30,136 nt of DNA. It comes from a virus. The stretch is from the IMG/VR virus record IMGVR_UViG_3300031772_000194, positions 1-30,136 of that record; one strand, 5' to 3'. A program made the translations under genes and the position numbers. Within the stretch, counting starts at the first letter, position 1. Each line of letters opens with the position of its first letter. The notes under the pieces were generated by a model that saw only the letters and a list, made by a program, of their open reading frames with translations, had not been told where the DNA came from and searched no databases. This document shows, piece by piece, positions 1,317-27,470 of this stretch.

Positions 1317-4300
1317 TCAACTTCTCCTCTTTCCGCCAACACCTGTCACAGGTGGAACATTTCGACCACCACCAACACCAATTATGGGCTGTGATATTCT
1401 TGAGACGGCCTGACCACTTACTGTCATAGTATATATGGTCCCGGACTCTACCTGGGTTACGATGTTAGTAAGTGATGGACTTAATGCCGTAAGAGACAAC
1501 GTCGATAACAGAGTTGATATGTTTTGAAGATAGGAGACATTCGGAACAAGTGCTGCCAATTGTAGAGTAGTCTTGTTTGAATTAATAGTATTAAGAATTG
1601 ATACAGTTATCTGTGCGGCAGTGAGCGTTAGATTAGACTGAAGTGTGGTGATGTTGTTGTTTGCATGTACTGTTGCATTTCCCGCATTCAAATTCAGTGT
1701 AACTTTATTCGCTACAATAGAAGCAATAGAACTTACAGTCACCTGAGCTGCAGACAATGCAAGATTTGCTTTGGAAGCATTGATCGTAACAACACTATGG
1801 ATAGTCGGTTGACTTGCGGACAACGATAATGTTGCAATGTTTGCTGAGATATCAACAGAACTACCCACAACGGTTGGCTGGAAAGCTGTTAGTGTCAGTG
1901 TTGCGAGAGTTCCAACAATTGGATATGTGGCTTTAACTACTGTTGGTTGAGCTGTCGTAATTGTAAGACTTGCCTTACTTGCGGAAATAATATTTGTAGC
2001 ATGAACAATCGGTTGTGAAGAAGAAAGTGTAAGACTTGTCTTATTAGCAGCTACGTTAACGGCGCCAGTAGTGATGATTGGTTGTGCGGCAGAGAGATTT
2101 AATGTTGCAAGCGTTCCAGCAATTGAATGCGCAACCTTAATAACGGTTGGCTGTGAAGCGATGAGATTAAGTGTTGTGATCGTCCCGACAATTGCATTGG
2201 TAGCTAGGACAGTCGATTGCGTGACTGTAAGACTTAACGCTGCGAGGTTTGCCTCTATTATACTTGAACCTTGTGTAACGGTTGGCTGGAAAGCTGAGAG
2301 TGTAAGTGTTGCTAGCGCTCCCGTGATGGGGTAGACGGCCTTGACGATGGTCGGTTGCGGAGCCGATAGCGTTAATGTTGCTCGATTCGCGACAACCGTG
2401 TTTGTTCGTGTGACAGTTGGTTGCGCTGCAGAACACGTAAGTGATGCAAGATTTGCGACGATTATATTTTGATTTAAAACAGTTGACTGTGGAGCGGAAA
2501 GACTTAGAGTCGCAAGATTTGCCGAGATTGTATAAATGACTTTGATGACTGTTGGTTGAGCTGCACTTAATGTCAATGTCGCAAGGTTCGCACCAATCGA
2601 TTGAGCTTGGGTGACTGTGGGTTGGAATGCACTAAGCGTCACTGTGGCAAGATTTGCCACAATTGGATACACCACCTTGACAACAGTGGGTTGTGGCGCG
2701 CTCAATGTCAGCGTTGCGAGGTTGCCAACAATCGGGTACACCGCTTTGACAACAGTGGGCTGGAATGCACTCAGCACTAGGGATACTGTGTTCGCTGTGA
2801 TAGCGTTAGTGGCAAGAACCGTTGACTGGAACGCGCTTAGCGTCAGTGACGCTTTGTTCGCTGTAATCGGGTACGCAACCTTGACGACCGTAGGTTGCGG
2901 AGCCGAGAGGCTTAGCGTCGCGAGATTGGCCCCGATGGATTGGACCTGCGTGACGGTGGGTTGGAACGCGCTTAGCGTGACACTCGCCAGTGTCCCCGCA
3001 ATGGCGTTGGTGGCAAGAACCGTTGGTTGCGGAGCCGAGAGGCTCAACGATGCCAACGTCCCTGCAATCGGATATACCGCTTTAACGACTGTCGGCTGGA
3101 GCGCGCTCAGCGCGACTGAAGCCAACGTCCCTGCGATGGCGTTGGTGGCACGGACGGTGGGTTGTGGAGCCGAGAGGCTCAACGATGCCAACGTCCCTGC
3201 AATCGGATATACCGCTTTAACGACTGTCGGCTGGAGCGCGCTCAGCGCGACTGAAGCCAGTGCTCCAGCGATTGGGTAGGCGACCTTGACGACGGTGGGT
3301 TGTGGAGCCGTGAGACTCAGCGTCGCGAGATTCGACGCGACGTTGACCACACCGACTGTCACGGTGGGTTGCGGAGCCGAGAGGCTCAGTGACGCCAGTG
3401 CTCCAGCGATTGGGTAGGCGACCTTGACGACGGTGGGTTGTGCGGCACCCAGCGTCAGTGACGCCAACGTCCCTGCGATGGCGTTGGTGGCACGGACGGT
3501 GGGTTGTGGAGCCGTGAGACTCAGCGTCGCGAGATTCGACGCGATGTTGACCGCACCGACTGTCACGGTGGGCTGCGGAGCACTCAACGTCAACGACGCC
3601 AGTGTCCCAGCGATTGGGTAGGCGACCTTGACGACGGTGGGCTGTGCCGCGCTTAGCGTGACACTCGCGAGGTTCGCGGAGATGTCCCGCGTCGGCGGCG
3701 TGACGGGCGCCACGAACGTCAACGCAGGCGCGAGGTGGTTCAGCCGAAGCGGTCCGTGCCGAGTGAAGTCCGGGTAGTTTGCGGTCCACGGGAAGTCGGC
3801 TGGGTTGAACGCGAGTTGGGCACCCAGCGTGAGGATAGGTCCGTCGGTACGTGTGGACCACGACCCCGGCCCGCCCTCGTTAAGCGCTTGAAGGTGCCGA
3901 TTGTGTCCCGAGGAATCGACCAGCTTGTTCGCAGCAGTCTGTTGATCGTAGAAAGCATGAAGGTTGGCAACGCGTGCTGGGCGTATCTGTCGCGACTCAG
4001 CATCCAACTCAGCAACTGTCAGTTCAGCGTTCCAAATTTTGACGGAACTTAGGTCGCCGTCCCACCACTCGTTCTGCGCGTTACCGGTGGTGTTTGCGTG
4101 GTCAGTCCCGAGGTAGAAGCGCTTAGCGACCCACGTGGTGAGCGGGTGGTCGTTGCCGACGACTGTTGTGAGTGCGCTCTGCCGCGAACTGCGCGCGTAC
4201 AACACTGTGTTTCCGGGGGAACTGACCTCCGCGCAGAAGTACCACTCGCCAACCGTTATCGTGGGTGTGAACAGGAACCCGTTGTTGACGGAGTCGTGAC

Positions 4301-4859
4301 ACTCCATCGTGTTCGCGTTGAACGTCGTCTCGAACAACTGGAAGTTGAGCGAATCGGTGGTATTGTACTCAGCGCCATCCTCAATCGACCACACGCACAT
4401 CTGTCGGCCAGAGCCGACGTTCGTGACGCGGAAGCGCATCCAGAACGTAATCGTGTGTCGATTCGGATCTACCGGTCTCAGTGAGGTGTCCGCCGAGGTG
4501 AGTCCATCATTGCCGGAAGTGGCACCGTACCGGACAGCGCCCGTTGGGACGGTGAGGACGTTGACCGCGCCGCCCTCTAGGTGCGGTTTGCGCACATTAC
4601 GGCAAACGAAATCGGGGTACGTCGCTGCCCATGACAATTCTGGGGCCGCCGGCGGCGGCGCGACCCACGGACAGAATGTGACTGCGGTAAGTATCAGCGC
4701 GACGCTGCGGGGCAACGTCCGACCCGGCATGATGTCCGGGTAGATGCCACGCGGAAATCCGTTGTCCCCACTGTCCTCAAGAAGGACCTTGCTCGTCCCG
4801 TCCTCTTGGAGGAGGAGGGACGTGCCGTCTTCTAAGAGTATCCGGTCGGTGGCTGCCAT
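1317..4859 (-). CDS. Large virion protein: LamG-like domain plus about 33 tandem beta repeats (fibre or decoration candidate)
   Basis: This 1180-residue protein opens with a duplicated LLEDGTS-type motif (residues 8-29), seen at the N-terminus of other phage structural proteins. A LamG/concanavalin-like beta-sandwich spans about 110-335 (TITFWMRF, GEWYFCAEV, LSSVKIWNAELTVAEL). It is flanked by two copies of a W-x-A-x-YPDF motif at about 77 and 358. From about 391 to 1110 there are roughly 33 copies of a 22-23-residue unit of the form I-A-x-x-L-A-S-L-T-L-S-A-x-Q-P-T-V. N-terminal copies are almost identical, while C-terminal ones are divergent. The C-terminus ends in a Gly-rich basic tail. LamG domains often bind glycans, so a fibre, decoration or host-adhesion role is plausible but unproven. 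It follows the 209-residue gene by four bases and has only a weak ribosome-binding site, suggesting coupling. Confidence 0.85.
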   Translation of the reverse strand: MAATDRILLEDGTSLLLQEDGTSKVLLEDSGDNGFPRGIYPDIMPGRTLPRSVALILTAVTFCPWVAPPPAAPELSWAATYPDFVCRNVRKPHLEGGAVNVLTVPTGAVRYGATSGNDGLTSADTSLRPVDPNRHTITFWMRFRVTNVGSGRQMCVWSIEDGAEYNTTDSLNFQLFETTFNANTMECHDSVNNGFLFTPTITVGEWYFCAEVSSPGNTVLYARSSRQSALTTVVGNDHPLTTWVAKRFYLGTDHANTTGNAQNEWWDGDLSSVKIWNAELTVAELDAESRQIRPARVANLHAFYDQQTAANKLVDSSGHNRHLQALNEGGPGSWSTRTDGPILTLGAQLAFNPADFPWTANYPDFTRHGPLRLNHLAPALTFVAPVTPPTRDISANLASVTLSAAQPTVVKVAYPIAGTLASLTLSAPQPTVTVGAVNIASNLATLSLTAPQPTVRATNAIAGTLASLTLGAAQPTVVKVAYPIAGALASLSLSAPQPTVTVGVVNVASNLATLSLTAPQPTVVKVAYPIAGALASVALSALQPTVVKAVYPIAGTLASLSLSAPQPTVRATNAIAGTLASVALSALQPTVVKAVYPIAGTLASLSLSAPQPTVLATNAIAGTLASVTLSAFQPTVTQVQSIGANLATLSLSAPQPTVVKVAYPITANKASLTLSAFQSTVLATNAITANTVSLVLSAFQPTVVKAVYPIVGNLATLTLSAPQPTVVKVVYPIVANLATVTLSAFQPTVTQAQSIGANLATLTLSAAQPTVIKVIYTISANLATLSLSAPQSTVLNQNIIVANLASLTCSAAQPTVTRTNTVVANRATLTLSAPQPTIVKAVYPITGALATLTLSAFQPTVTQGSSIIEANLAALSLTVTQSTVLATNAIVGTITTLNLIASQPTVIKVAHSIAGTLATLNLSAAQPIITTGAVNVAANKTSLTLSSSQPIVHATNIISASKASLTITTAQPTVVKATYPIVGTLATLTLTAFQPTVVGSSVDISANIATLSLSASQPTIHSVVTINASKANLALSAAQVTVSSIASIVANKVTLNLNAGNATVHANNNITTLQSNLTLTAAQITVSILNTINSNKTTLQLAALVPNVSYLQNISTLLSTLSLTALSPSLTNIVTQVESGTIYTMTVSGQAVSRISQPIIGVGGGRNVPPVTGVGGKRRS
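1560..3700 (-). repeat. Tandem 66-69 bp coding repeats with near-identical copies at the upstream end
   Basis: The repeat array of the 1180-residue protein is visible as DNA. Copies between about 2600 and 3700 are nearly identical and GC-rich; copies from about 2600 down to 1560 are diverged and AT-richer. A perfect 94-bp direct repeat occurs at 3031-3124 and again at 3166-3259, offset by 135 bp (two units). Other long near-perfect copies are offset by three units, for example from 3301 and from 3505. All offsets keep the reading frame, as expected from unequal recombination within a coding repeat. Confidence 0.9.
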
Positions 4860-9338: not shown

Positions 9339-11015
9339 TCAAATAACGTTCATGTCCATGCAGGTCACGGTCCCGAAGAAATCTGAGCGCACCATCTTCT
9401 TAGCATAGCGAGTCATTACGCCCTTACGAGGGGTGAAATCCTCAGGAGCGTAGATCGTCGGGGTGACGATGAGTGGGACATACGGAGCATACACGAACCC
9501 GGTCTCGAGGAAGGATGAACCCTTGTACCCGAGGAGAATCTTGTTGCGAGGGAAGTACGGATCCTTGTAGATCGTGAAACGATTGTTCAAGGTACCGATC
9601 TTCTCGGTTCCGACGGAGAACATGGTCTCCTTTGCGTCCATCGAGAGAACCGGCTTGTACAGAACCGATGCTTCGAAGATGGTGCCGACGTCTGGTGAAG
9701 TTACGCACCAGTTTGCAGCGCCACGCAGCGTCTTGCGGTGAATGGTGTTAGCCGCATCGATAACAGTCTCGATGAGGGTTTCATACCACTCACGAACAGT
9801 ACCGGTGAATGAAGCGCCGGACTGGACAACACCACTCGTCTTATCGACGAAGGTACCTGGCTTACGCGACCAGAAGAAGTTCGCACCGGTTGCCTGGAAC
9901 AGAAGGTCACCGAGGATTTCACGGTCGATTTCGAGAGCGATTGCCTCAGAGAGCACCTGGGTGAGCTCGACTTCAGCGTCCAGATTCTGGTAGGCCGCCA
10001 AGTCCTGCGCGACTTCCGGGGTCCACTTTGCACGAAGCTTACGCGAGTTGGCCGTTACACTGACCGACTGGATGCGAAGATCGAGCTCGGGGATAACCGG
10101 CATCGGGGTTGCACCGACATCGGACTCCCACTCAGACAGAGTGAGCGAGCCAGAAGTACCAGCGGTCAAGGTCGAACCCTGAACGTAGGACATCTTGGCA
10201 ACCAGAGCTTCGAGAGCGGACACGCCGTCGACGATGAACTGGAGATCACCACCGTTGATCTTGGTGTGGCGGCGGTAAACGATCGCACCCGTCTGGAAGC
10301 GAACTGGAGTACCGTCTGTGGACGCCGACTGGCCAGTTGAAGAACCAGAGAGCAGGATCCACTGCTTGACGGCCGAAGCCGACGAGTCGACGCCCGGTTC
10401 AAGAGCCAGAGTCGTAAGCGCACCAGAAACCGTGACCATACGAACGGTCGTGGAACCAGAGAGCTCGGGGTCATGACCCATCTGCACAAGGGTCGGAACA
10501 GAGAGACCGAGCGCAAAGGAGCCAGTGGTGACTCTCTCACGCTGCGAGAAAGACGATCCAAGGTTGTACATGCCACCCGTACCAGCGGCATCCTGGAGGG
10601 AGTTGCGATCACCGAAGATCGAACCACCAGCAGCGAAGTCGTTCGCGCGGTTACCAGCCTTGACGCTATCCCAACGATAGTCAAGATAGAAGAGCAGCCC
10701 TGACGGGAGGCTCATTGGCTGGACAGAGACGAGCTCGTTGGCGATGAGACCAGCGAAGACGCGACGGACGATTGGGAACGCAACATTCTGGAACCCGATG
10801 ATGTCAGTCGAGCTGAGTGACTCGTTTAGGAGCGTCGCAGCCTGGTTCTCAAGAAGACGAGCCATGTTGCTTCGCGCCTTGTTATTCTGGTAGTCCTTCA
10901 GACCTTCGAGCAGACCGGTCTTCGACCACTTTGACTCGAGGCGGCTAGCTTCCTTTGCCTGGTCTGGGCGTTGGATACCATCCGTGAGAGTCTTGATATC
11001 TACATTCATTGCCAT
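9339..11015 (-). CDS. Major capsid protein, T4 gp23-like
   Basis: This 558-residue protein is the HK97-fold capsid subunit of the T4 gp23 type. Residues about 52-110 carry family landmarks: ARLLENQ, a GFQNVAFPIVRRVFAGLIANELVSVQPMSLPSG stretch (the gp23 VQPMSGPTG region) and LLFYLDYR. T4 gp23 is about 520 residues, so the size fits. The first ~65 residues are helical and charged like a propeptide. L-N-E65 followed by S66 is a candidate prohead protease site; I recall the T4 gp23 propeptide as also 65 residues. It follows the gp22-like scaffold gene directly, has a strong ribosome-binding site (aaggagattaacgaaaATG) and ends at an intrinsic terminator, as expected for the most abundant virion protein. 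Confidence 0.93.
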   Translation of the reverse strand: MAMNVDIKTLTDGIQRPDQAKEASRLESKWSKTGLLEGLKDYQNNKARSNMARLLENQAATLLNESLSSTDIIGFQNVAFPIVRRVFAGLIANELVSVQPMSLPSGLLFYLDYRWDSVKAGNRANDFAAGGSIFGDRNSLQDAAGTGGMYNLGSSFSQRERVTTGSFALGLSVPTLVQMGHDPELSGSTTVRMVTVSGALTTLALEPGVDSSASAVKQWILLSGSSTGQSASTDGTPVRFQTGAIVYRRHTKINGGDLQFIVDGVSALEALVAKMSYVQGSTLTAGTSGSLTLSEWESDVGATPMPVIPELDLRIQSVSVTANSRKLRAKWTPEVAQDLAAYQNLDAEVELTQVLSEAIALEIDREILGDLLFQATGANFFWSRKPGTFVDKTSGVVQSGASFTGTVREWYETLIETVIDAANTIHRKTLRGAANWCVTSPDVGTIFEASVLYKPVLSMDAKETMFSVGTEKIGTLNNRFTIYKDPYFPRNKILLGYKGSSFLETGFVYAPYVPLIVTPTIYAPEDFTPRKGVMTRYAKKMVRSDFFGTVTCMDMNVI

Positions 11016-11054
11016 TTTCGTTAATCTCCTTGTATACTCTGTTGGTGCCGTCTC

Positions 11055-12224
11055 TTACTTCAGGAGACCGGCAAGCTTCTGCATACGAGCGAAGCTCTCG
11101 TTGGTTTGCGAACGATCCACAGATTCACTGAGGACTTTGTGATCAGGCGCTCCAGAAGAGCGAACGCGCTGTGCATTGACGGCTGGCTTCCGAGACTTTG
11201 ACTCAGACAGCTGACCGACTGATGCGAAAGAATTGAGAATGGCTTCCGCGACCATCTTGACTTCACTGACAGAACGTGCCTTGTCGATGGACTCGAGGAC
11301 AACTCCCTTCTGCTCCATCGTCAGCTTACCGTGCTTGTTCAGAATCTTATTGACATGGAGAACCTTTGAATTGAACAGGTTGACCTCGTGCAACTGCTTT
11401 GCGAGACGCTCACTGAGAGCGACCGACTTGGTGAGAGCGGCCTTGAGGGCCTTGTTCTCACGAAGACCGCGCTGGATCATCTCCTTGACGGTGTAATCCT
11501 GCTTTGCAGAAACCTCACCCTCTTCCCATGGAGTTGCGCTCTTGGTCTTGATATCAGCAAGACCCTTATCAAGGTCCTTCTGAACATCGTCAAGCTCGCC
11601 CATCGGGGTCATGTCGCTGAAGCCCTTCTTAACCTCAACCTCGGTCTGCAGAGCAGCCTCATACACTTTGCGAAGCTCTGACTCTGAAATCTCGATCTCT
11701 TCTTCCACGGGCTCTTTCCCCTCTTCCTCTTCCTCATCGCCACCCTTCTTCTTGCCTTCCTTCTTCGGGAGGGGCATCTCGTCATCTTCGCCACCAAGCG
11801 CACCGAGACCACCCGCCTCTAGACCAAGGCCTGGCTCTTCGCCGAGGGTCGGCATGCCATCAAGACCTTCATCGGGCTCCTCACTCATGTTAGGGAAGAA
11901 AGCGGCAAGCGCCTCCATGTCCAGTTCCTTGCTCTTCTTTGGTGCGCTCATGTCATCCATCTTGGTCTCTCCTTGTGCGTCTGGGTCTTTGGCTTCCTCG
12001 AAGCCTGTCTTGCTCTCGCCTGGATAGTCTTGTGCAACTCTCCTCATGCGATTCTGCCCCTCATTTCTACGACCGAGGACGCCATTGATGTTCTTCTCAA
12101 GCAAAAGCTTAATAGCGGGAGCCATATTCTCAATGATCTCTTTCTTCGCCGCTTCTAGTGCAGAATTACGGAGGGACTTCGCATCCTCGACTGCTTCCCT
12201 TACTAGCTCTCTTCCATCTTTCAT
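11055..12224 (-). CDS. Prohead core scaffold protein, T4 gp22-like
   Basis: This 389-residue protein is highly charged. Residues 1-70 form a Lys/Glu helix (ELVREAVEDAKSLRNSALEAAKKEI). Residues 90-185 are a low-complexity acidic Gly/Pro/Met/Glu region. A long coiled coil follows at about 190-335. The C-terminus reads FARMQKLAGLLK. Position immediately upstream of the gp23-like gene and downstream of the gp21-like protease matches T4 gp22, the core scaffold degraded by gp21. Two L-S-E-S sites (341/342 and 367/368) fit the protease consensus. Identification rests on composition and synteny, since scaffold sequences diverge quickly. Its ribosome-binding site is GAGGAG. Confidence 0.82.
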   Translation of the reverse strand: MKDGRELVREAVEDAKSLRNSALEAAKKEIIENMAPAIKLLLEKNINGVLGRRNEGQNRMRRVAQDYPGESKTGFEEAKDPDAQGETKMDDMSAPKKSKELDMEALAAFFPNMSEEPDEGLDGMPTLGEEPGLGLEAGGLGALGGEDDEMPLPKKEGKKKGGDEEEEEGKEPVEEEIEISESELRKVYEAALQTEVEVKKGFSDMTPMGELDDVQKDLDKGLADIKTKSATPWEEGEVSAKQDYTVKEMIQRGLRENKALKAALTKSVALSERLAKQLHEVNLFNSKVLHVNKILNKHGKLTMEQKGVVLESIDKARSVSEVKMVAEAILNSFASVGQLSESKSRKPAVNAQRVRSSGAPDHKVLSESVDRSQTNESFARMQKLAGLLK

Positions 12225-12253
12225 TCGAAACTCCTCTATACAACATGGGGCTC

Positions 12254-12295
12254 GGAAAATCTAAATTAAATGGTACGCCCCGAAAAATGCATACC
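12254..12295 (-). promoter_or_regulatory. Possible hairpin/attenuator between the bS21 gene and scaffold gene
   Basis: In the 87-bp gap, minus-strand GGTATGC (12295-12289) can pair with GCGTACC (12278-12272), with one G-T wobble and a 10-base loop, followed by the AT-rich ATTTAATTTAGATTTT. An alternative pairing of GGGGC (12281-12277) with GCCCC (12251-12247) would disrupt it. This could tune scaffold and capsid expression relative to bS21, or be a weak terminator. No standard promoter is evident. Confidence 0.3.
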
Positions 12296-12311
12296 AAAAA
12301 CTAAAAAATCA

Positions 12312-12509
12312 TTACTCTTGTTTCTTTTTCTGGTTATTCTTTTCAAACCTGCGTTCAGCAGAAGGCTTCATATAAAACCTTCTATCGTATAGTTCCTGTA
12401 GGACTCCTGACCCGCGAACTGATTTTTGGAATTTTTTAATGAGTTTGTCGTAACCATCTTTGTGATCTGATGGCTTTGAATTAACCTGTAACGCTTTGAA
12501 CGGTTTCAT
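12312..12509 (-). CDS. rpsU-like: Phage-encoded bacterial ribosomal protein bS21 homologue
   Basis: This 65-residue, strongly basic protein shows the bS21 pattern from about residue 20: YDKLIKKFQKSVRGSGVLQE, then RRFYMKPSAERR. Compared with E. coli bS21 it keeps F/Y-D, K/R-F-K/R, G-V-L, E, R-x-FY-x-KP-x-x-ER and the Lys-rich tail. bS21 sits in the 30S subunit near the anti-Shine-Dalgarno region and aids initiation on natural mRNAs. Phage-encoded bS21 is known from uncultivated and some cultivated phages and is thought to replace the host copy. Its start shares a base with the stop of the 404-residue gene (TAATG) and has little Shine-Dalgarno sequence, so translation is probably coupled. Confidence 0.88.
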   Translation of the reverse strand: MKPFKALQVNSKPSDHKDGYDKLIKKFQKSVRGSGVLQELYDRRFYMKPSAERRFEKNNQKKKQE

Positions 12510-13723
12510 TAAAACTGCTCGTAACGCTCTTCACCGTCTGGCCCAGTTACACGAAGTTGATAGCCTTTCGGCCACGGTTGTCCTTCTTGTCCTGCTTCAG
12601 CTGGTTGGCGAGCACATAGTTTCTTGTTACCAAACGCTCGAGGGTCGAATACTCCTCTCTGAACTACACGACCATGGGCGTCGACGACAATCGCAGTCGT
12701 CTTTCCTTTGACGACGTCTCTAGAAGAACCATGTCCACCAAGATCATCGTCTTCAGCTTCATCGACTTCTTTCTTCGGGCCGGCCTTTTTCTTCTTGATA
12801 TGCGCTGCAAGAGCCTTTGGATCCTTCTGACCCTTCTTGTGAGCGGTCTTTGGATCAACCTCAGAGAACGGATCGACGTCTGCGTCTTCTGCGTCTTGAG
12901 TCGTGTCGTCAGCATCATTCTGATCTTGTTTCGGTTCCTTCTTTTTCTTGCTCTCATCGGAAGCTTCCGCCGCGAACATCAAAGACTCCCACACACCTTT
13001 TGGCTGTGGCAAGCCTCTGTTTCCCTTGATGATTGACTCAAGCACCGGCCAATTAGACGCAGTGTTCGGACCCATACTGGATCCACCTTGCTGCTTGTAG
13101 AGGTTAAGATCACCAAGTGGCTTGGAGAAGTCAAACGCCTCAGCGTAAGTGAAACCAGGAGTCTCGTCTTCCTTCTCTTCTTTCTTCTTTTTCTTGGACT
13201 TGCGAGCCTCACTCAGCTGCAAGTCAACGATCTGTCGAATCTCATCTAGTGTCATGGAAACTCCTGTACTCTCTAAATGGAGAGATTCTACAGCAATCTG
13301 TTCGTTTTCTTCATTTTCAAAGTCTTCATGACCGCCGTAATTCAACGCTGGGAAGGCGTCTTCGGTATCGTCGTAGTCCCCATCATGCTCACCATGATCC
13401 CATGGTTTGATTGGAGAAGTTGCCCAACTACCCGCTGCTCCTACTACAGGAGCGCCGCCACCTGGATCAGACTTGTGAATTGACATTGCAGCATCGAAAG
13501 CTTCATCGGCTTCTTCCCACGCTGTATGTTTGGTGTCTTTGGGCACTGGAGGCTGATGTCCTTGAGCTGCAGAAACTGACTTGTTGTCATATGCCGCAGG
13601 TTGTCCGTAAAAGACTTCCTTGTCATATGGGTACTTCTTGGCTCTCTTGGAGAGTGGACGATTAAGTCCGCCTCTCATTCCAGAGCCATCTGGTTGTGCT
13701 GGGTCGTATACGCGATCTGGCAT
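12509..13723 (-). CDS. Low-complexity probable prohead/core protein of unknown function
   Basis: This 404-residue hydrophilic protein alternates acidic (EDFENEENEQIAVE, DADDTTQDAEDADVDP) and Lys-rich runs (KSKKKKKEEKEDE, HIKKKKAGPKKE). Its C-terminal ~65 residues look folded (TTAIVVDAHGRVVQRGVFDP, WPKGYQLRVTGPDGEERYEQF). L-S-E172 before A173 is a candidate prohead protease site. It lies between the 176-residue gene and bS21, within the segment from protease to scaffold, so a core or internal-head protein is the best contextual reading. The start is one base past the preceding stop with no clear ribosome-binding site, suggesting coupling. Confidence 0.72.
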   Translation of the reverse strand: MPDRVYDPAQPDGSGMRGGLNRPLSKRAKKYPYDKEVFYGQPAAYDNKSVSAAQGHQPPVPKDTKHTAWEEADEAFDAAMSIHKSDPGGGAPVVGAAGSWATSPIKPWDHGEHDGDYDDTEDAFPALNYGGHEDFENEENEQIAVESLHLESTGVSMTLDEIRQIVDLQLSEARKSKKKKKEEKEDETPGFTYAEAFDFSKPLGDLNLYKQQGGSSMGPNTASNWPVLESIIKGNRGLPQPKGVWESLMFAAEASDESKKKKEPKQDQNDADDTTQDAEDADVDPFSEVDPKTAHKKGQKDPKALAAHIKKKKAGPKKEVDEAEDDDLGGHGSSRDVVKGKTTAIVVDAHGRVVQRGVFDPRAFGNKKLCARQPAEAGQEGQPWPKGYQLRVTGPDGEERYEQF

Positions 13724-13724
13724 C

Positions 13725-14255
13725 TTACTTCACCGGAACTTCAAGAGCCTTTCGTCTACGTTCAAGTTCACGAAGCTTCGCATCGTCAGTTGTTGGCATC
13801 GGACCATTCTTCTCCAACGCACCAGCAAGACGAGCCATCTTCTTAAAATCAAGTCCAGCACTCTCTAGAAGCTGCGTGCTGACACCTTCTTCTACTTGAG
13901 AAACTTGTTTGACATCTTCATAAATGAACGACAATGGATTTGATCTTGATAGAAGAGCAGAGTTCATCGCATTACGCTTCGTAGCTTCTGCTGCAAGCTT
14001 ATCGTTGTCTAGATCGTCTGAATATTGCTCGTCATAGATTCCTGCATCATCTCGTTTCTTTGGCAAAGGAACATTCTGATCTCTACCTTGATCAAACTGC
14101 AGAGGACCAGACTCGTCTTCTCTGCTTTCCTTCATCATCTTGCGAATGTAATTTTCGGTTAGATGTTCGCGAATCAATCCAGGAAGAGCCCTCTTAAGCT
14201 CCTCTCTGACGATCGAACGAATTGCCGCTGATAATTCTTTGCCACCAACCTTCAT
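13725..14255 (-). CDS. Helical probable prohead protein with RMxxLAG-like C-terminal motif
   Basis: This 176-residue, largely helical protein begins with AIRSIVREELKRALPGLIRE. Residues about 128-147 read TQLLESAGLDFKKMARLAGA. The LAG segment resembles the scaffold C-terminus (FARMQKLAGLLK), and L-L-E131 before S132 fits the prohead protease consensus. It follows the protease gene by three bases with ribosome-binding site GGAGAT. Possibly an accessory core protein of the T4 gp67/gp68 kind by position; there is no sequence proof. Confidence 0.72.
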   Translation of the reverse strand: MKVGGKELSAAIRSIVREELKRALPGLIREHLTENYIRKMMKESREDESGPLQFDQGRDQNVPLPKKRDDAGIYDEQYSDDLDNDKLAAEATKRNAMNSALLSRSNPLSFIYEDVKQVSQVEEGVSTQLLESAGLDFKKMARLAGALEKNGPMPTTDDAKLRELERRRKALEVPVK

Positions 14256-14258
14256 TGT

Positions 14259-14861
14259 TTATCTCCGAGTGATATTGATATTATTCAGCGCTCTGAAGAT
14301 TCGATCGGCTTTGGAGGTGCGAACTTCCTCGTCAAAAATCGTCTTACCTTCCGCGAATAGATATGCTCCTGGAGTGGATGGTTCGGAGACGATATCGAAG
14401 CAGATGATCTGATAATCGGGTTGCACAGTGTCCAGCCCTTCGTTTGTCTTCTCTGTTGAACCTACTCCGCGGCTGCTGATTCCGATGACCACTCCGGCTT
14501 CCAGGAGCGACTCGAGGATCTTTCCTTTCGGAGTTGGTAGTACCTCAACCCTTCCAATGACGTTGTTCCCATCCCATCCGATCTCGCGAATGATGTGGGA
14601 AACATTCTGTAGACTTACAGAGCTTGATTCTGGATGGTCTAGTTCACCAACTGCGCGGGCTTCACGAACTGCCTTTGTGTAGTTCTCGACTTCACGTTGG
14701 AGAATCTCCATCGGGTAGATTCGCTTGTTTTGATTCTTGGTATTAGCCTTTTGCAGAATGCCCTTAAGCACAAGCTTTCCACCGTTGGACTCACGGGACT
14801 CCTTGATCAACGCCGCACTGTAATCAAGTGCATACCACTCTCTAAGAAGTTTCTTTGCCAT
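14259..14861 (-). CDS. Prohead core protease, T4 gp21-like (S80 family)
   Basis: This 200-residue protein has the gp21 hallmarks: GELDHPESSSVSL with catalytic His76, and GISSRGVGS with nucleophile Ser130. The spacing and overall length (T4 gp21 is about 212) match. It cuts scaffold, core and capsid propeptides after L/I-x-E during head maturation. The N-terminus has its own candidate autocleavage site, I-K-E21 before S22. It follows the 79-residue gene with stop and start adjacent (TAAATG), and an AGGAGA lies upstream. Its position after the portal region and before scaffold and capsid genes is as in T4. Confidence 0.92.
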   Translation of the reverse strand: MAKKLLREWYALDYSAALIKESRESNGGKLVLKGILQKANTKNQNKRIYPMEILQREVENYTKAVREARAVGELDHPESSSVSLQNVSHIIREIGWDGNNVIGRVEVLPTPKGKILESLLEAGVVIGISSRGVGSTEKTNEGLDTVQPDYQIICFDIVSEPSTPGAYLFAEGKTIFDEEVRTSKADRIFRALNNINITRR

Positions 14862-18160: not shown

Positions 18161-18278
18161 ATTTCCTTGATGACCCCCAGTATGAGTTCCTGCGTGTAAC
18201 TATGAAAAGAAAGTCCTCTTGTGTACTTCTGGCGTAGAATCTTGGCTCAGATCTTTCGGAAAGTGTTCCGGTTGACAC
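18141..18278 (-). CDS. Possible 45-residue small protein in the portal downstream gap
   Basis: The gap between the portal stop and the next start is fully open in one frame, giving EPRFYARSTQEDFLFIVTRR, then NSYWGSSRKYAFSTP, a well-mixed protein-like sequence. A GTG at 18278 inside the portal 3' end could start it but lacks a ribosome-binding site; the stop lies 20 bases inside the 282-residue gene. It may be a real overlapping small gene, a remnant, or chance. Confidence 0.25.
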   Translation of the reverse strand: MSTGTLSERSEPRFYARSTQEDFLFIVTRRNSYWGSSRKYAFSTP

Positions 18279-20373
18279 GCTTGAAGACGCCTTTGATGGC
18301 TTCTTCGAACTGCTTATCAAGCTCTTTATTGCGCTCAATAGATTCATCGATGTAATTCGCCATAACATCCTTTTCTTCAGAGAAAGGTCGAGTGATCAAT
18401 CTGTGCATCGCTCTCTGATCCATTGGATCTGATGCGGTCTGTTTCTCCGTTCCGAAAGCGAGGTTGTACGAGTCTTCGCCAGTAGAAAAGAGATCCTTGC
18501 CCTTGTCAACGGCTATCTCGGATGATTGTCCCTCGCTGCCTGGGTTGCGTTTCTCATCCATTGGTGCGATCTCTAACTGATCTTCGGGCACCCATTCCGA
18601 CACCCGCATGTCGGAAGTGTATGGAACTCCACTGTATTGTTCGTCTGGAGGACCGTACTTCACTCGAAGTAATTTCAGGTTCCCGTGCATCTTTGGTGGA
18701 ACGTCTACGATGTGTCCGACTCTATCAGGATCCTGGACGAGCCTCACGATCGCTCCTGGTACAAGTTGGCCCTTGACATCCTCGTGAATGACCCCCTCGG
18801 GTGTCGTCGTTGGCTCTGGAGAGGCTTCCGGTGCAGTCTGAGCAGTTTCCCCTTCCCCGCCACCAGTCTCACCGCCGAGAGTACTCGGGAGCTCTTCCTC
18901 ACCTGGCAACGGCTCTTCTTCCCCTCCCACTGCATCTTCGGCAGCCTCATCTGTCGGTGCCTTCATTCCTTCAAGAATCAGGTCCTCGAGCTTGTCTGAC
19001 TTCTTCCCTTCCTTAATCTTCATGATCTCCTCATTAGAGAAATTAAAGATCTTGCGGTAAATACTATCTCGATCGAGGATCCCTTCGGTCGCAGAGCCTG
19101 CAATCTCGAACTTCATCCTCCAGAGCTCAAGCTTCTGTTGTTCTGCGATGGTGGAAGGATTGGCAAGACGAAGCTCAAAGTCGACGAGATCCTCTCCTTC
19201 ATAACCCAACATATAAAGATGAATCAAAGCGATCTTGTTGAGCTCTGCAATGACGATCTTCTGAATGCGCTCGATCGTCCTTGCGAATCGGACGTCCATC
19301 TGAGCGAGAGTCGCCTTCGATCCAAGCTCAGCCTCGTATCCAAGATGAGCCTTTGGAACCTTCAAGGCGGCGAACAACTTGTTCTGAATATACTGAACGT
19401 CCTCAATATCTCCAGTGAATTGTCCACCTGCGAGAGTCTCGATTTTGGAGCTCTTGTCCCCGCGCGTCGGGATAAAATAGTCCTCATCAACCGATAGTGG
19501 ATTGTATCTAAGATCGACACGTCCGGTGTTCGGGTCGATAACCTGATTTCTACGAAGACGAGTCTTGACCTGCTCCATGAACTGATCAACCTCGGCTGGA
19601 TTAATGTTTCCGACGTCGATGTAGAACACGCGGCGCTCTGGAGATCGTACGATACGATATACGAGCATCGCGTCCTCAATGAGAATCAGTTGTCTCCAAA
19701 TACGACGGGCTGGCTCAACGACAGAAGAACCGTATGGAAGGAAGTTATCATTTCCAAGCAGACGAAAATGGATCATCTGCCAATTCTCGAGAATCTGATT
19801 TCCTTGCGTTAACCAACGAAATCGAACGGCGAATGGATCATTCTTATCATATCCTTCCTCACGCTCGATCTCGTTGATCGGAATCGGAAGAAGATTTAGG
19901 ATACCGTTTTGTTCGGAGGCGTCAACGAATAGAACCATGTCGCCGTACTTTACCAGATTGCGTACCCAACTCCATGCATTAAACTCAATGTTTAAAATAT
20001 CGAAGAACAAAGTCTCAAGCACTTTCTTGATCTCAGCGTCTTTCGAAACAACATTAAGAATACGGCCCTCATCACCAAATGCGGTTACTTCATCAGCATA
20101 GATGTCCAGTGCGGAACTAATTTCAGGAGTGAACTCCATCTCAGTATAGTCTGAGTAGCGCGACAGTCGTTCATATTGTCCATAGCTTGCCAAACTGTGA
20201 ACATACAGGGACGACAATTCCTTCTTATATGCACGTGCAGTTCCACGCGGCTCTGTCATTGGCTCGCCAGCGGCGATCTTATGACGAACAACCGGACCAG
20301 ATCTAAAGAGACGCGTTAGTCTCTTCCAGACAGTTTCTTTCTCTTGACTAGGCTTGATTAGATCGTCGGCCAT
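18247..20373 (-). CDS. Portal protein, T4 gp20-like, with extended C-terminal domain
   Basis: The protein has 708 residues; T4 gp20 is about 524. Family segments are clear: DIYADEVTAFGDEGRIL, NAWSWVRNLVKYGDMVLFVD, the diagnostic RSPERRVFYIDVGN, DYFIPTRGDKSSKIETLAGG and DIEDVQYIQNKLFAALKVP. The dodecameric portal forms the DNA channel at the special vertex and docks terminase. From about residue 472 the protein departs from gp20: an acidic Gly/Pro/Thr linker (472-530), an SH3/KOW-like beta segment (about 532-602, LVPGAIVRLVQDPDRVGHIV) and a basic C-terminal helix (about 660-708). The start shares a base with the terminase stop (TAATG), so the two are probably translationally coupled. Confidence 0.93.
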   Translation of the reverse strand: MADDLIKPSQEKETVWKRLTRLFRSGPVVRHKIAAGEPMTEPRGTARAYKKELSSLYVHSLASYGQYERLSRYSDYTEMEFTPEISSALDIYADEVTAFGDEGRILNVVSKDAEIKKVLETLFFDILNIEFNAWSWVRNLVKYGDMVLFVDASEQNGILNLLPIPINEIEREEGYDKNDPFAVRFRWLTQGNQILENWQMIHFRLLGNDNFLPYGSSVVEPARRIWRQLILIEDAMLVYRIVRSPERRVFYIDVGNINPAEVDQFMEQVKTRLRRNQVIDPNTGRVDLRYNPLSVDEDYFIPTRGDKSSKIETLAGGQFTGDIEDVQYIQNKLFAALKVPKAHLGYEAELGSKATLAQMDVRFARTIERIQKIVIAELNKIALIHLYMLGYEGEDLVDFELRLANPSTIAEQQKLELWRMKFEIAGSATEGILDRDSIYRKIFNFSNEEIMKIKEGKKSDKLEDLILEGMKAPTDEAAEDAVGGEEEPLPGEEELPSTLGGETGGGEGETAQTAPEASPEPTTTPEGVIHEDVKGQLVPGAIVRLVQDPDRVGHIVDVPPKMHGNLKLLRVKYGPPDEQYSGVPYTSDMRVSEWVPEDQLEIAPMDEKRNPGSEGQSSEIAVDKGKDLFSTGEDSYNLAFGTEKQTASDPMDQRAMHRLITRPFSEEKDVMANYIDESIERNKELDKQFEEAIKGVFKRVNRNTFRKI

Positions 20374-22073
20374 TATTTTTTCCTCTTGTAGTCAATCAAC
20401 CAAGCTAGATCAATGGTCTGTCCACGTGGCATGCGGATCGTATAGTCGCTTCCACCCATGATCCCAAGCGGATGATTAACATGTGGTGTCATGTGGGCTT
20501 GAATGAAGCGCGGATCTTTCGATGCTCCAGGGATCTGAGTGTGTACATTCTTGCTGAATGATATGCCATTGATCATCTTTTTGTTCATCTCGTTTGTTGC
20601 CACAGAAGACGCGAAGAAAGTATCTCTCACCCACACTCCGATGGCGGCTGCCATAACTAAGTCGTCATTGTATCCTCGAGCTGCTTCGGCTCTATGGTTG
20701 TTCCAAATGAATGTTCTTAACTCATCACACAGACGATGAGAACTGATCACAAGATCTCTATTGCGAACATACTCCTCGAATTTTGCGACAAGGAGTGGAC
20801 GATTCTTGGAGTTCATCGTAAAACCTGGAATCAGATCGTCTCGAGTAGTTCCCCACTGAGCATTGATTGCAGAACCAGGTTTGATATCGTTCTTACGAGA
20901 ATAATAGAGATTTTCATACGCGAGGATCTTAATATGTTCGATACATGCTTGTCCGATTGAATTATTCTCGACGACCATTGTTGCGGTGTTGTATCTTCTA
21001 CCAAGACTTACAAGAAGCTTTGCAAACTGATCGGGAGGTATCTTGCCTTGATATTCAGCACATTGTGTCATCCTTTCGATGTCCCACACGTGACATGTGG
21101 AGAAGTCTTTTCCATCTCCTCTTGCGACGTCTGCCGACAAGAGATATCTGTGGCCGGTAGTTGGTGGAAACCAGACGTAGAGGTTCGAGTCGTCATGCTC
21201 CAAACTGATCGCATCATGAGCTGTCTCTCGAAGATGATCGATACTCTCCTGAGGGATAACGGTATCTCCTGAGGAGTTAAAATTACACTCAAGTTCCTGA
21301 GCTATGGAACGAGCTGTCATACTTGCAGAGCTTATTTCCTCACGGAACCAGCTTGATGTCTTAAATCCCGGACGATCAGGATCATCTGTTAAATCTGAAA
21401 TTCGCTCAGGGTGTCTCCACCACATGAACTTATGTGCTTTGAAATCATTCTTGCCCTGCTCTGCGTCAGAATAGATCTCATGAAACTTATTACCAACTCC
21501 ATTGGGTGTGGAGAGAACTGACACGCGACCACCTGTCGCGACCGTAGGACGAAGGCCCGTCCATAGTACATCAAACTTTGGAACGAATGCTGCTTCGTCG
21601 ATGACAAGAAACGACACGGCTTCAGAACGACCAGCATCTCCCGCAGATGCGATAGCCTTGATCCAGGAACCGTTGTCTAGCTCAATAGACAACTTGTTAT
21701 CAAATTTAACTGGAGAAAGTAACAGCCATTTTGGAAGGTACTTCAGAGCGGTCGCAACCTTCTTTACAATGTTCTTTGCCGTCTCAGCTTTGGAAGCGAT
21801 AACAAGAACACTCTTCTCACGATGGAACAACATCAACCAAACAGCAAACGCAGACGTACACTCAGATATGCCGATTTGGCGACCTTTGAGTGTTACGTTG
21901 AAGCGAAAATTCACATAATCGTGGATAAGCTCTGTCTGATAATCGAAGAGCTTAAACGGGATGATCCCTCTAACTGGATGGCGAATCTTGACATACTTGT
22001 CGATGAAGTAACAAGGGTCACGACCACACAGTAGGATCTCATCTCGAAGATTCGCTGGCTCAGTCGAGCTCAT
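20373..22073 (-). CDS. Terminase large subunit, T4 gp17-like (ATPase-nuclease)
   Basis: I place the start at ATG 22073 (566 residues), behind ttGGGAGGttct, rather than at the in-frame TTG at 22085, which overlaps that ribosome-binding site. The ATPase half has a variant Walker A (LKGRQIGISECT, Lys63) and Walker B SFLVIDEAAF (Asp159, Glu160). The RNase H-like nuclease half has LLSADVARGDGKD (Asp315), TMVVENNSIG (Glu369) and GYNDDLVMAAA (Asp470/471). It cuts concatemeric DNA and pumps it through the portal, whose gene follows directly. No small terminase gene is recognisable next to it. Confidence 0.93.
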   Translation of the reverse strand: MSSTEPANLRDEILLCGRDPCYFIDKYVKIRHPVRGIIPFKLFDYQTELIHDYVNFRFNVTLKGRQIGISECTSAFAVWLMLFHREKSVLVIASKAETAKNIVKKVATALKYLPKWLLLSPVKFDNKLSIELDNGSWIKAIASAGDAGRSEAVSFLVIDEAAFVPKFDVLWTGLRPTVATGGRVSVLSTPNGVGNKFHEIYSDAEQGKNDFKAHKFMWWRHPERISDLTDDPDRPGFKTSSWFREEISSASMTARSIAQELECNFNSSGDTVIPQESIDHLRETAHDAISLEHDDSNLYVWFPPTTGHRYLLSADVARGDGKDFSTCHVWDIERMTQCAEYQGKIPPDQFAKLLVSLGRRYNTATMVVENNSIGQACIEHIKILAYENLYYSRKNDIKPGSAINAQWGTTRDDLIPGFTMNSKNRPLLVAKFEEYVRNRDLVISSHRLCDELRTFIWNNHRAEAARGYNDDLVMAAAIGVWVRDTFFASSVATNEMNKKMINGISFSKNVHTQIPGASKDPRFIQAHMTPHVNHPLGIMGGSDYTIRMPRGQTIDLAWLIDYKRKK

Positions 22074-22201
22074 AGAACCTCCCAAGAATCACTCTGGGCC
22101 AGATTTTCGGAAGCCCACAATGATCGCAGATTTGAGAGCGAGTTCACAACAATTGCAGGAGTCTCAATAGGAATGATGCAAGTAAAGCATTCCTTTTGCA
22201 T
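22070..22201 (-). CDS. Possible 43-residue protein with CxxC, maybe a frameshifted zinc ribbon
   Basis: The ATG at 22201 shares a base with the preceding stop (TGATG), and the TGA overlaps the terminase start (ATGA), the usual layout of real genes here. The product starts MQKECFTCIIPIETPAIVVN. A second knuckle, ICDHCGLPKIWPRVILGRFY, is encoded downstream in the +1 frame, ending at 22060 inside the terminase gene. Joined by a net +1 shift around 22120-22140 the two would form a standard two-knuckle zinc ribbon. Either a sequencing or assembly indel, a broken gene, or programmed frameshifting could explain it. Confidence 0.45.
   Translation of the reverse strand: MQKECFTCIIPIETPAIVVNSLSNLRSLWASENLAQSDSWEVL
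22078..22083 (-). promoter_or_regulatory. Ribosome-binding site fixing the terminase start
   Basis: The minus-strand GGGAGG lies four bases before ATG 22073. The alternative in-frame TTG (22085-22083) overlaps this element and would lack a ribosome-binding site of its own. Confidence 0.75.
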
Positions 22202-24039: not shown

Positions 24040-24273
24040 TTACTCCTTTGCAACTAGTGGCACGTTCTTATCTGTGTATCGTCTTGCAACATACGCGCTT
24101 AATGTTGGCGTCAGTAAAGACGCGATAAGCGACGCGTCGATCGTGCCAAAATTAAAACCCATGAAAACAACGCCACTTAAGGACACTTTCATCAAAACGA
24201 CAATCATCGTCATTACTGCCATCGTTAACACAGCATCTTCCTTTCCATCGGTATTCTTGATCCAGAGTGACAT
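24040..24273 (-). CDS. Small two-helix membrane protein, holin-like candidate
   Basis: This 77-residue protein has a predicted membrane helix at about 14-36 (AVLTMAVMTMIVVLMKVSLS) and a second at about 46-62 (DASLIASLLTPTLSAYVA), with a charged C-terminus RRYTDKN. Length and topology suit a small holin, and the FGTIDASLIASLLTPTLSAY segment looks like small membrane proteins of T4-like marine phages. No endolysin lies in the window, so the lysis assignment is tentative. The start shares a base with the stop of the fused Mre11-Rad50 gene (TAATG) and has GGAG upstream. Confidence 0.6.
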   Translation of the reverse strand: MSLWIKNTDGKEDAVLTMAVMTMIVVLMKVSLSGVVFMGFNFGTIDASLIASLLTPTLSAYVARRYTDKNVPLVAKE

Positions 24274-27200
24274 TATTTGGCTCCAACTTCTACGTGTGCA
24301 TAACCTTCGTCGTCTGTTGTAATCTCAATCACATTGTCAACCATATCCTTCATCGTGTCTAGATGGCTAATGATCAAGACATGGTCGTACACTGTCTTTA
24401 GGTAGTCAAACATCCTCTGAACATTCTCGACGTTTTTTGTATCTAGTTTTCCGAACCCTTCATCGATTATTAGAACATTCGTCTTGGGCAAATTAGAGAT
24501 GTTCAAAAGAGCAGTCCGAATCGCAAGAGATGCTAGGAATTTCTCGGCTCCACCTCCCAGTTCGAGCAAGCGCATTTTGTATTCTCCGTACTGAAGAAAG
24601 AATCTGATCGATTGATCTTCTGGATCGGCTTCGATCATCACGCCGAAATCTGTACATCCCGACAAGATCTTGTTTATCTCTTCATTTAGTAAAGGTAGCT
24701 TCTGTGTAAGGATCTGATATGCAATGCCATCCTTTCCCATTGCGTCGATATATCGTTCATATGCGCTGCACATATCTCGAGTCTCAGCAATCTCTGTGAG
24801 ATCCTTCGTGATCATATCAAATGCTGCTTGCTTGTTACCGGAAGACTTGTGATATCCAGCAAGACTCTTGTCGTTTTGTTCTAGTTTTTCCTCTATCTCG
24901 ATCTTATCTTTCTTAAATGCCGCAATCTTTGCATCGATTGCAAGATTTTTCATGATGTCTTCCTGCATCTGTAGAGCATTGGCTATCTGGAGTTCTGTGT
25001 CAACAATGTCTGTATAAAGCGCAGACATTTTAAGCGTAATATTCTCTAACTCCAACTTGATCTTTTCTTTCTTTTCGTTGAGAGATGTTCTCGCATCGAT
25101 CAATTGTTTGGAAGATTCTTGAGCGTAGACATGATCAGAAAAGACATTAACGTCGATCATGTATCTTTCAAGTTCAAATTCGATTGTCCGCAGCTCGTCA
25201 TCGAGCTTTTCTATCTTATGAGCTGACTCAAAGCCATTGATAAGGAATCTGCATCCTGGAAACTGTGTTCCGCATGGAACTGTCTCGAGAATGGCCGCAC
25301 TTTTCTGACATTCTGTAAGTTCTGCTTTTTTCTGTATAAGACTATCACGCGTTCTATCGACAAGTTCTTGTCCGCTTGTCTTTAGTGCTTTCAATTCGAA
25401 TAAACGAATATCATCATATATGATTGAAGAGACTGGGATCGAGGAAAATTCCTCATCCATCTTTGTGAGCTTAATGCTTGTCTGAATCCTGTCGTCATCA
25501 AGACTCTGGTTCTCTCTCTGCAAAAGGGTCAACTTATCTCGAGCAGAATCAATATGGACAAACTTTCCTAACTGTATCTTCTCTAGAGAAACATCCTCTA
25601 TCTGTCTATCGATCGTTATTTTAAGAGACTTAAGGATCGTGTTCTTTTCGGTAAGTTTTGAAATCTCTCCATCAAGTTCCTCGATTTCAGATAGTAGTTT
25701 AATCTTGTTCTTTTCGAGCTCACTTTCTTCGGCGTCGCTCAATTTGATCGTGAGTTTCTTGAATTCTTCCTTGGCGAGACGGTTCTTTTTCTCAAAAACA
25801 TCGAGGTCAAAGAACTTGAAGAAGATCTCACGACGTCGAGTCTCATTGCATGCGATCAGATCCATCTGATTCCACTGAGCAACAAGCGCGGTGAGCATGA
25901 AGTCTTCGAATGTTCCGACTCGTTGGCGGATATTAGCCTCTGTTTCTGGCCTAAGGGTACCAACCAACCTTTCGATTCCACCATCTTCGTCGATCATCGA
26001 GAACGACGTGGTGGTCTTTCCCCACTCCTTTGCTTCTGAAAACTTCTTATGGCCGTACTTGATCCTCTCGATGTTCCTCTCAATCATGTAATCTTGGCCG
26101 TTCGCGGTAACATCCGCGATCGATGTACCAGAATCCTTGTTGTCATTGATCAAGAAGATGTTCTTGCTGACTCCCTTGGTAACATTATCGAAGCAAGCGA
26201 GGGTTAGAATGTCAATCATGTTAGACTTGCCAGAGCCATTAGGAGCAAATATCCCAGTCAAGCCACCAAGCTGAGAGAAATCAATGAAATTGTCCTTGCC
26301 GTAATTGAAAAAGTTGGACCAGCCGATCTTGTTAATCTTCCAGAAGATATCTCTACCCGAATCATCATTCTGATCGATGTGAATCTGAAATTTCCTATTC
26401 AGATCGAGGACCTTGGACATGACAGAGTCTGTTATCGAGACTCCTTTGAAATAGTTTCTTATCAGACGTTCTTGAACGGGGATCTCACGGAGGTTCTCGT
26501 GATCGACACTTCTCTTTCCGACATTCGTCTTCTGTTCGCTAATGTTCGTCGCAGATAGAGTGATAACGTCGTGTGGTGAGAACATAAGTCGAGCATTCTT
26601 CTCGATCTCTTTCTGCTGAACGAGAGTGAGAGGAAATGGCGGGCTCAACCTTACATGTGCGTCTGGTTCAATGATCAAATCTTCTGGAAAGGAAAGATCT
26701 TCTTTCGGATGAATCGTATAGAACTTTCTGCTACCAGAAAGAAGAATGGGTTTGACGGTGAATTGCTTCTTTGGATCATTATCGTCAAATTCCCAGAGCA
26801 GGAATCCCTTATCGAGTTCTTCTCCGAAATTCTGCTGAATCAACGAGCCTGGATACCAAGCTCTGCTGTTGTTGAAGGATTGTTGTTTGTGGATATCGCC
26901 CATCATGACGTAGTCAAGACCGTCGAAAATCGACAGATCGTGTTCAACGTGCGTCATCCGCCAATTAGAGTCTGTCACACATGAGAGCACAGATCCGTGG
27001 AACAATCCGATGTTGTTATCATCTGGAAATTTTGCCCAATCTACTGGTCTCGGATAATTCTCTTGATCGGCCAGCGAAAATACCCAAAAGTTAAGCTGAC
27101 ATTGATCGTCACCGCGATGGCGCACTGCGAATCTACCAGACTTCTTGTGCAGGAAGATTCGATTGCTTCCAATACTCTCGACGACAGGAGTGATGGCATC

Positions 27201-27470
27201 CTGACGACTCAGGTTCATCAAGCTCATGTCATGGTTGCCGAGGATTAGGTGGTAAGGAGCGATCGTAGACGCAGCACGCATGTGATCTGACAACATACTC
27301 ACAAACTCGGGGCTGATCTGTGTCTTTGTATGTGCCGTGTCGCCCGTATTGACAATCAGGTCTGGCTTAAGAATCTCTAGTTCATCATACAGCGCATCAA
27401 ATACTCTTCTATACTCTTCGTGATATTTGAAATTGCGAATATGTACATCACTGATGTGAGCAATCTTCAA
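24273..27470 (-). CDS. Fused Mre11/SbcD nuclease and Rad50/SbcC ATPase (gp47-gp46 fusion)
   Basis: One 1065-residue frame encodes both subunits of the recombination nuclease. Residues 1-340 are a calcineurin-like phosphoesterase with all metal motifs: SDVH (Asp8, His10), NTGD (Asp44), LGNHD (Asn79, His80), FHGS (His158) and GDIH (His194). Residues 385-1065 are the SMC-like ATPase: Walker A GIFAPNGSGKS (Lys415), long coiled coils (about 560-730 and 745-900), a hook apex with C733 and C740, signature LELGGGAEKF (about 970), Walker B VLIIDEG (Asp1003, Glu1004) and H-loop His1036. In T4, gp46 and gp47 are separate and make 3' ends for recombination-dependent replication. The start is TTG, overlapping the primase stop (TTGA), with GGGAG seven bases upstream. 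Confidence 0.93.
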   Translation of the reverse strand: MKIAHISDVHIRNFKYHEEYRRVFDALYDELEILKPDLIVNTGDTAHTKTQISPEFVSMLSDHMRAASTIAPYHLILGNHDMSLMNLSRQDAITPVVESIGSNRIFLHKKSGRFAVRHRGDDQCQLNFWVFSLADQENYPRPVDWAKFPDDNNIGLFHGSVLSCVTDSNWRMTHVEHDLSIFDGLDYVMMGDIHKQQSFNNSRAWYPGSLIQQNFGEELDKGFLLWEFDDNDPKKQFTVKPILLSGSRKFYTIHPKEDLSFPEDLIIEPDAHVRLSPPFPLTLVQQKEIEKNARLMFSPHDVITLSATNISEQKTNVGKRSVDHENLREIPVQERLIRNYFKGVSITDSVMSKVLDLNRKFQIHIDQNDDSGRDIFWKINKIGWSNFFNYGKDNFIDFSQLGGLTGIFAPNGSGKSNMIDILTLACFDNVTKGVSKNIFLINDNKDSGTSIADVTANGQDYMIERNIERIKYGHKKFSEAKEWGKTTTSFSMIDEDGGIERLVGTLRPETEANIRQRVGTFEDFMLTALVAQWNQMDLIACNETRRREIFFKFFDLDVFEKKNRLAKEEFKKLTIKLSDAEESELEKNKIKLLSEIEELDGEISKLTEKNTILKSLKITIDRQIEDVSLEKIQLGKFVHIDSARDKLTLLQRENQSLDDDRIQTSIKLTKMDEEFSSIPVSSIIYDDIRLFELKALKTSGQELVDRTRDSLIQKKAELTECQKSAAILETVPCGTQFPGCRFLINGFESAHKIEKLDDELRTIEFELERYMIDVNVFSDHVYAQESSKQLIDARTSLNEKKEKIKLELENITLKMSALYTDIVDTELQIANALQMQEDIMKNLAIDAKIAAFKKDKIEIEEKLEQNDKSLAGYHKSSGNKQAAFDMITKDLTEIAETRDMCSAYERYIDAMGKDGIAYQILTQKLPLLNEEINKILSGCTDFGVMIEADPEDQSIRFFLQYGEYKMRLLELGGGAEKFLASLAIRTALLNISNLPKTNVLIIDEGFGKLDTKNVENVQRMFDYLKTVYDHVLIISHLDTMKDMVDNVIEITTDDEGYAHVEVGAK

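Follow-up and report, generated by a model that had tools for sequence, protein, structure and literature searches.

The viral fragment analysed here, referred to as the window (30,136 bases; all window coordinates refer to this fragment), carries a gene for the ribosomal protein bS21 within the head-gene cluster of a T4-like phage. It is fairly probable that this gene is a translationally coupled, head-module bS21 paralogue of a gp23 phage, the product of which enters the host 30S subunit and alters initiation during capsid translation. In the proposed mechanism, a functional phage bS21 paralogue would be inherited with the head module of a T4-like (gp23) lineage and transcribed together with the protease, scaffold and capsid genes. 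Its translation would be fed mainly by ribosomes completing a 404-codon ORF, through a TAATG junction with almost no Shine-Dalgarno (SD) sequence. The protein would then join the host 30S platform beside the anti-SD tail, in place of host bS21 or as a supplement to it, and initiation would be altered late in infection, while the scaffold and capsid messages, both SD-led, are produced. Co-transcription, actual translational coupling, late timing and ribosome entry of bS21 are what we infer from the sequence, and a preference for phage messages would be conjecture.

The minus-strand order of the genes was terminase, gp20 portal, four ORFs, S77 protease, a 176-aa ORF, a 404-aa ORF, bS21, a scaffold-like gene and gp23. 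The presence of the terminase, portal, protease and gp23 in this order on one strand identified the region as the head module of a T4-like myovirus. The features were as follows.

20373..22085, minus strand, large terminase (PF03237, 4.4e-17; phrog_2, 1.2e-50)
18247..20373, minus strand, portal protein gp20 (PF07230, 7.9e-73)
14259..14861, minus strand, prohead protease, Peptidase_S77 (PF03420, 3.2e-31)
13725..14255, minus strand, 176-aa head-region ORF with an MK..L..II.EE-like N-terminus and no assigned function
12509..13723, minus strand, 404-aa ORF upstream of bS21, whose homologues adjoin bS21 in the two nearest relatives (L009 and L103)
12507..12511, minus strand, TAATG stop/start overlap of the 404-aa ORF and bS21, read from the sequence
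12312..12509, minus strand, bS21 ribosomal protein gene, 65 aa (PF01165, TIGR00030 and phrog_21469 matches)
12225..12311, minus strand, 87-nt gap between bS21 and the scaffold-like gene, with no significant RNA fold (z -0.21)
12231..12236, minus strand, GAGGAG, SD sequence of the scaffold-like gene
11055..12224, minus strand, scaffold-like acidic protein, 389 aa, whose homologues precede gp23 in relatives (alignment)
11026..11031, minus strand, AAGGAG, SD sequence of gp23
9339..11015, minus strand, major capsid protein gp23 (PF07068, 1.9e-75)

The original prediction, which named no strand, had placed the minus-strand bS21 gene between a prohead-type protein and the scaffold gene. Its position before the scaffold-like gene was borne out, the label "scaffold" resting on position, acidity and conservation beside gp23, with no family hit and no PHROG name. 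The prohead-type assignment was not recovered for the adjacent 404-aa gene, which had no family match in the Pfam, PHROG and NCBIfam searches; the S77 protease lies farther upstream (14861-14259), and the 176-aa ORF is located between the two. Small head-region proteins, represented by 13725-14255 in the window and by equivalents in many loci, shared the MK..L..II.EE-like N-terminus, as well as a C-terminal W..LA[FG]-like motif that was also found near the ends of the scaffold-like proteins.

The 65-codon ATG ORF (12509..12312) encodes the product MKPFKALQVNSKPSDHKDGYDKLIKKFQKSVRGSGVLQELYDRRFYMKPSAERRFEKNNQKKKQE, a short, Lys/Arg-rich protein with a GVLxE...RRxFYxKPSxxR-like core (GVLQELYDRRFYMKPSAERR); the bS21 motifs quoted in the original prediction were all found in the translation of 12312-12509. 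Family membership, for which a failed profile search had been named as the refuting outcome, was confirmed by Pfam Ribosomal_S21 (PF01165; E 1.1e-9, 38.3 bits, cut-off 27) and by the NCBIfam equivalog TIGR00030 (34.6 bits, cut-off 28.95), both above cut-off, as well as by a match to phrog_21469. On these profile matches, the ORF is a true bS21. A chance ORF was rejected because bS21 homologues were present in 30 examined records, window included, and host contamination was rejected because phage head genes flank bS21 on both sides. Against solved bS21 chains, the best phmmer match had an E of 2.6e-5, and the F. johnsoniae chain was among the lowest-scoring (14.9 bits, against 27.7 for the best) in a set that samples few phyla. 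The predicted model (pLDDT 81.6) contained helices at residues 20-34, 36-44 and 49-64, and the stretch ahead of the first helix (residue 20) was longer in the window protein. Among the fold-search matches listed, B. subtilis bS21 was the only one from the PDB, and its match was weak (Foldseek E 4.8; VIA Z 3.4, with an rmsd of 3.9 across 52 residues), as is perhaps expected for a protein of this length. In four loci (L010, L042, L065 and L111), P[VL]T[RK]GxKxRKK replaces FYxKPSxxxR and the slot is kept.

The TAATG sequence cited for coupling was literally present. The stop TAA of the 404-codon ORF (12511-12509) and the start ATG of bS21 (12509-12507) share one base, and upstream of the bS21 start there was GAG only, almost no SD sequence. 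SD matches of at least 4 nt preceded 24 of the 31 window genes, compared with 31% of other ATGs. The bS21 start was overlapped by, or located no more than 14 nt after, the end of the preceding ORF in 19/21 loci (window included). Because of the overlap, the near-absent SD and this close spacing, the simplest reading makes the gene the downstream member of a translationally coupled pair of cistrons. Together with the location in the head run, the same strand and the conserved placement, coupling leads us to expect co-expression of bS21 with the head genes. Head genes are late genes in phages, and bS21 would probably serve a late adjustment of host ribosomes. The scan for the T4 late promoter TATAAATA gave 7 matches vs 8.8 expected, and the sigma-70 promoter and terminator scans were at chance level. 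No consistent RNA fold was found across loci in the gap between bS21 and the scaffold-like gene, where only L009 stood out (z -3.2), and the Rfam and tRNA scans of the window found none.

With the window bS21 as query, no relative was found in the viral-contig or genome-contig collections, the phage hits were weak only, and alignment A2 of bS21 had diverged too far to be used for scanning. Homologues were reached through gp23 and scaffold rather than bS21, together with named phage records reached via bS21 or gp23, and bS21 was detected in these loci with an iterated profile. This gave 30 bS21-bearing loci, window included, and in alignment A3 all of the 28 bS21 homologues matched PF01165 at E<=0.01. 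Among loci with both protease and gp23, 24/36 carried bS21. Comparison with other phage bS21 genes, which the original prediction had proposed, found the same location: bS21 was located between the protease gene and gp23 in all informative bS21 loci (24/24) and on the gp23 strand in 30/30 loci, and contigs from bacterial genome bins (MAG) provided further cases with the same slot and strand (7/7), so that wherever bS21 and gp23 co-occurred they were on the same strand (37/37). The location is not peculiar to the window. In the gene maps, bS21 was one to three genes past the protease, with extra genes sometimes inserted ahead of the scaffold and with the huge phage LR756508 as the exception. 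The nearest relatives, L009 and L103, had the same order of 404-like ORF, bS21, scaffold and gp23. HNH-like ORFs were observed around the head genes of L009 (5019-5549, 7804-8475 and 12179-12604), one of which is inserted immediately upstream of bS21. No host could be inferred from bS21, which is too divergent, or from the 30 kb window; the gp23 relatives in MAG contigs were spread over bins of many phyla, and phage contigs in bins are unreliable for host assignment.

bS21 was absent from the available stretch of 12 loci, and a sister phage group with the same head module had no bS21 in the region examined, which means that bS21 is not essential to the head module. On the gp23 tree, where the window grouped with L009 and L103 with full support, bS21 presence required 4 changes (at least 3), compared with the 10.3 that shuffled labels required. 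The bS21 and gp23 distances were correlated (Mantel rho 0.53), with 0/2000 permutations as high. Since bS21 divergence follows that of gp23, the gene appears to be passed on as a component of the head module. The simplest reading would be that bS21 was gained once, long ago, and lost within one sister group, a reading of which the tree alone is no proof. Inheritance with the capsid gene argues for a stable function in late translation, not a chance pick-up from hosts.

The occurrence of bS21 in the head-gene cluster is a known habit of big phages. Chen et al. 2022 (PMC9723584) describe Bacteroidetes phages of clades a-e with bS21 in the head region, and both these phages and the window have bS21 near TerL, portal, prohead protease and MCP. 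Of the 900 published bS21 phages surveyed there, 310 had prohead protease and 154 had MCP within ten genes, which makes the neighbourhood as such an already known one; those with bS21 two to four genes from prohead protease or MCP have hosts of several phyla, and the window is one more member. The same text proposes late co-expression of bS21 and ribosome hijack, and reports phage bS21 RNA as abundant, along with structural genes, in samples with high capsid RNA. The original prediction, that bS21 is made with the head proteins and biases ribosomes towards late messages, is plausible, was published in essence and is partly supported here. The available survey text is silent on strand, coupling and inheritance of bS21, and the present analysis adds the coupled arrangement on the same strand, the context of genes that use SD sequences and the inheritance shared with gp23.

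According to that paper, the Bacteroidetes phage bS21 is always encoded on the other strand from the structural genes and not in one operon with them, has an aromatic residue at the Tyr54 site (F. johnsoniae numbering) that blocks or faces the anti-SD in 61/61, and belongs to genomes of 31-34% GC. In contrast, the window and all of the 30 gp23 loci have bS21 on the same strand, the Tyr54 site is occupied by Lys in the window and by an aromatic residue in 1/28 aligned phage rows, the window has 49% GC and its genes are SD-led. Because of the strand, the Lys and the SD-led genes, the window bS21, by sequence, is not of the Bacteroidetes type, and the hidden anti-SD mechanism is not transferable to it. 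A better starting point is the classical bS21 role of aiding mRNA-16S pairing at initiation (summarised in PMC6375957 and in PMC9723584).

Named phages showed the same slot with some variation. In Microcystis phage Mel-JY01 (PP395634; annotated host Microcystis elabens), rpsU directly follows the protease and a single small gene and precedes scaffold and gp23 on the same strand, as in the window, but two further genes separate bS21 from scaffold; the Mel-JY01 bS21 was 33-37% identical to that of the window. In the uncultured LR756508 (484 kb), bS21 immediately precedes scaffold and gp23 on the same strand, as in the window, but after a 91-nt gap and with the protease about 11 kb upstream. The ribosome-bias idea is directly testable, since Mel-JY01, with a recorded host, has the slot and the sister phages lack the gene. 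With the window, the phages in which bS21 is maintained within the head cluster now include a large T4-like lineage that uses SD sequences.

Pelagiphage HTVC008M encodes a bS21 of the same family, but its gene is about 19 kb from the prohead protease, outside the slot. This protein was incorporated into E. coli 70S ribosomes, and the ribosomes carrying it had about 5% activity in GFP synthesis (PMC6375957). By analogy, such a value would fit inhibition as well as bias, and it favors a reading in which phage bS21 in ribosomes chiefly impairs host initiation in a dominant-negative manner, not favoring phage messages. We regard host shut-off of this kind as unlikely; it is ill-suited to a module where the phage itself needs the most translation, and the effect may arise because a Pelagibacter-phage protein is poorly matched to E. 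coli ribosomes, according to the authors of PMC6375957. The low activity was nevertheless counted against the coupled head-module paralogue, as were the sister group without bS21, the weak fold match, the promoter scans without a recognisable late promoter and the 87-nt gap before the scaffold gene, which could hold a separate promoter. In favor of the head-module reading, a bacterial bS21 paralogue shifts the proteome with transcripts unchanged (PMC9578407).

Phage bS21 could also top up a limiting, exchangeable host protein without selectivity. The core bS21 motifs retained by the window protein and most relatives are in line with mere supply, which requires only late expression from the gene position. 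Nonetheless, supply without selectivity is improbable, since a supply gene is expected to be host-like, whereas the phage bS21 proteins are strongly diverged (17-34% identity to the window protein) and have N-terminal extensions, and solved host bS21 reached only the phmmer E given above. For huge-phage bS21, such N-terminal extensions were proposed to help preferential initiation (Al-Shayeb et al. 2020, PMC7162821).

It is very improbable that the small basic bS21 now serves as part of the prohead core or of the virion, perhaps being injected so that it acts on ribosomes immediately, and equally improbable that in part of the lineage a bS21-like protein of this kind would reach ribosomes with the injected genome. 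The fixed slot among head genes, the relatives that lost the FYxKPS motif yet keep the slot, and encapsidation, raised as a possibility by Chen et al. (PMC9723584), speak for such a role. So does L014, where a 361-aa ORF, in a 361-codon frame with no intervening stop, ends in a bS21-like domain and has an N-terminus that resembles head-region proteins; however, this fusion was seen in one metagenomic contig, which has no relatives and no second example, and its bS21-like domain could conceivably have an internal GTG start. The window bS21 itself has neither the MK..L..II.EE-like N-terminus of its neighbours nor, by eye, a clear L/I-x-E protease site. No bS21 in virion proteomes was found in the literature, and the PA5oct bS21, from a different phage family and location, is unmarked where the annotation marks proteins seen by ESI-MS/MS.

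Several other features were observed in these genomes. The prohead protease of L014 (5373-7085) is broken after GELDH by an intein-like insertion (CLAGDTEVLTEDGW...), the LR756508 protease matches in two pieces inside a 576-aa frame, and the portal ORF of a 595-kb phage (L004, 6371-8944) contains an intein-like segment (CVAGDTLISTVYHG...VMHNC). In the window, a 1065-aa ORF (24273-27470, minus strand) joins a calcineurin-like nuclease domain (residues 1-195) to an SbcC/Rad50-type ATPase (385-1021) and thus fuses the counterparts of T4 gp47 and gp46. Downstream of gp23, on the minus strand, there are two tandem paralogue pairs (4864-5493/5500-6123 and 6405-6857/6873-7322), and a 1180-aa tail-fibre-like protein (1317-4859, minus strand) has a Laminin_G_3 domain and many repeats like ANLATLSLSAPQPTVVKVAYPI.
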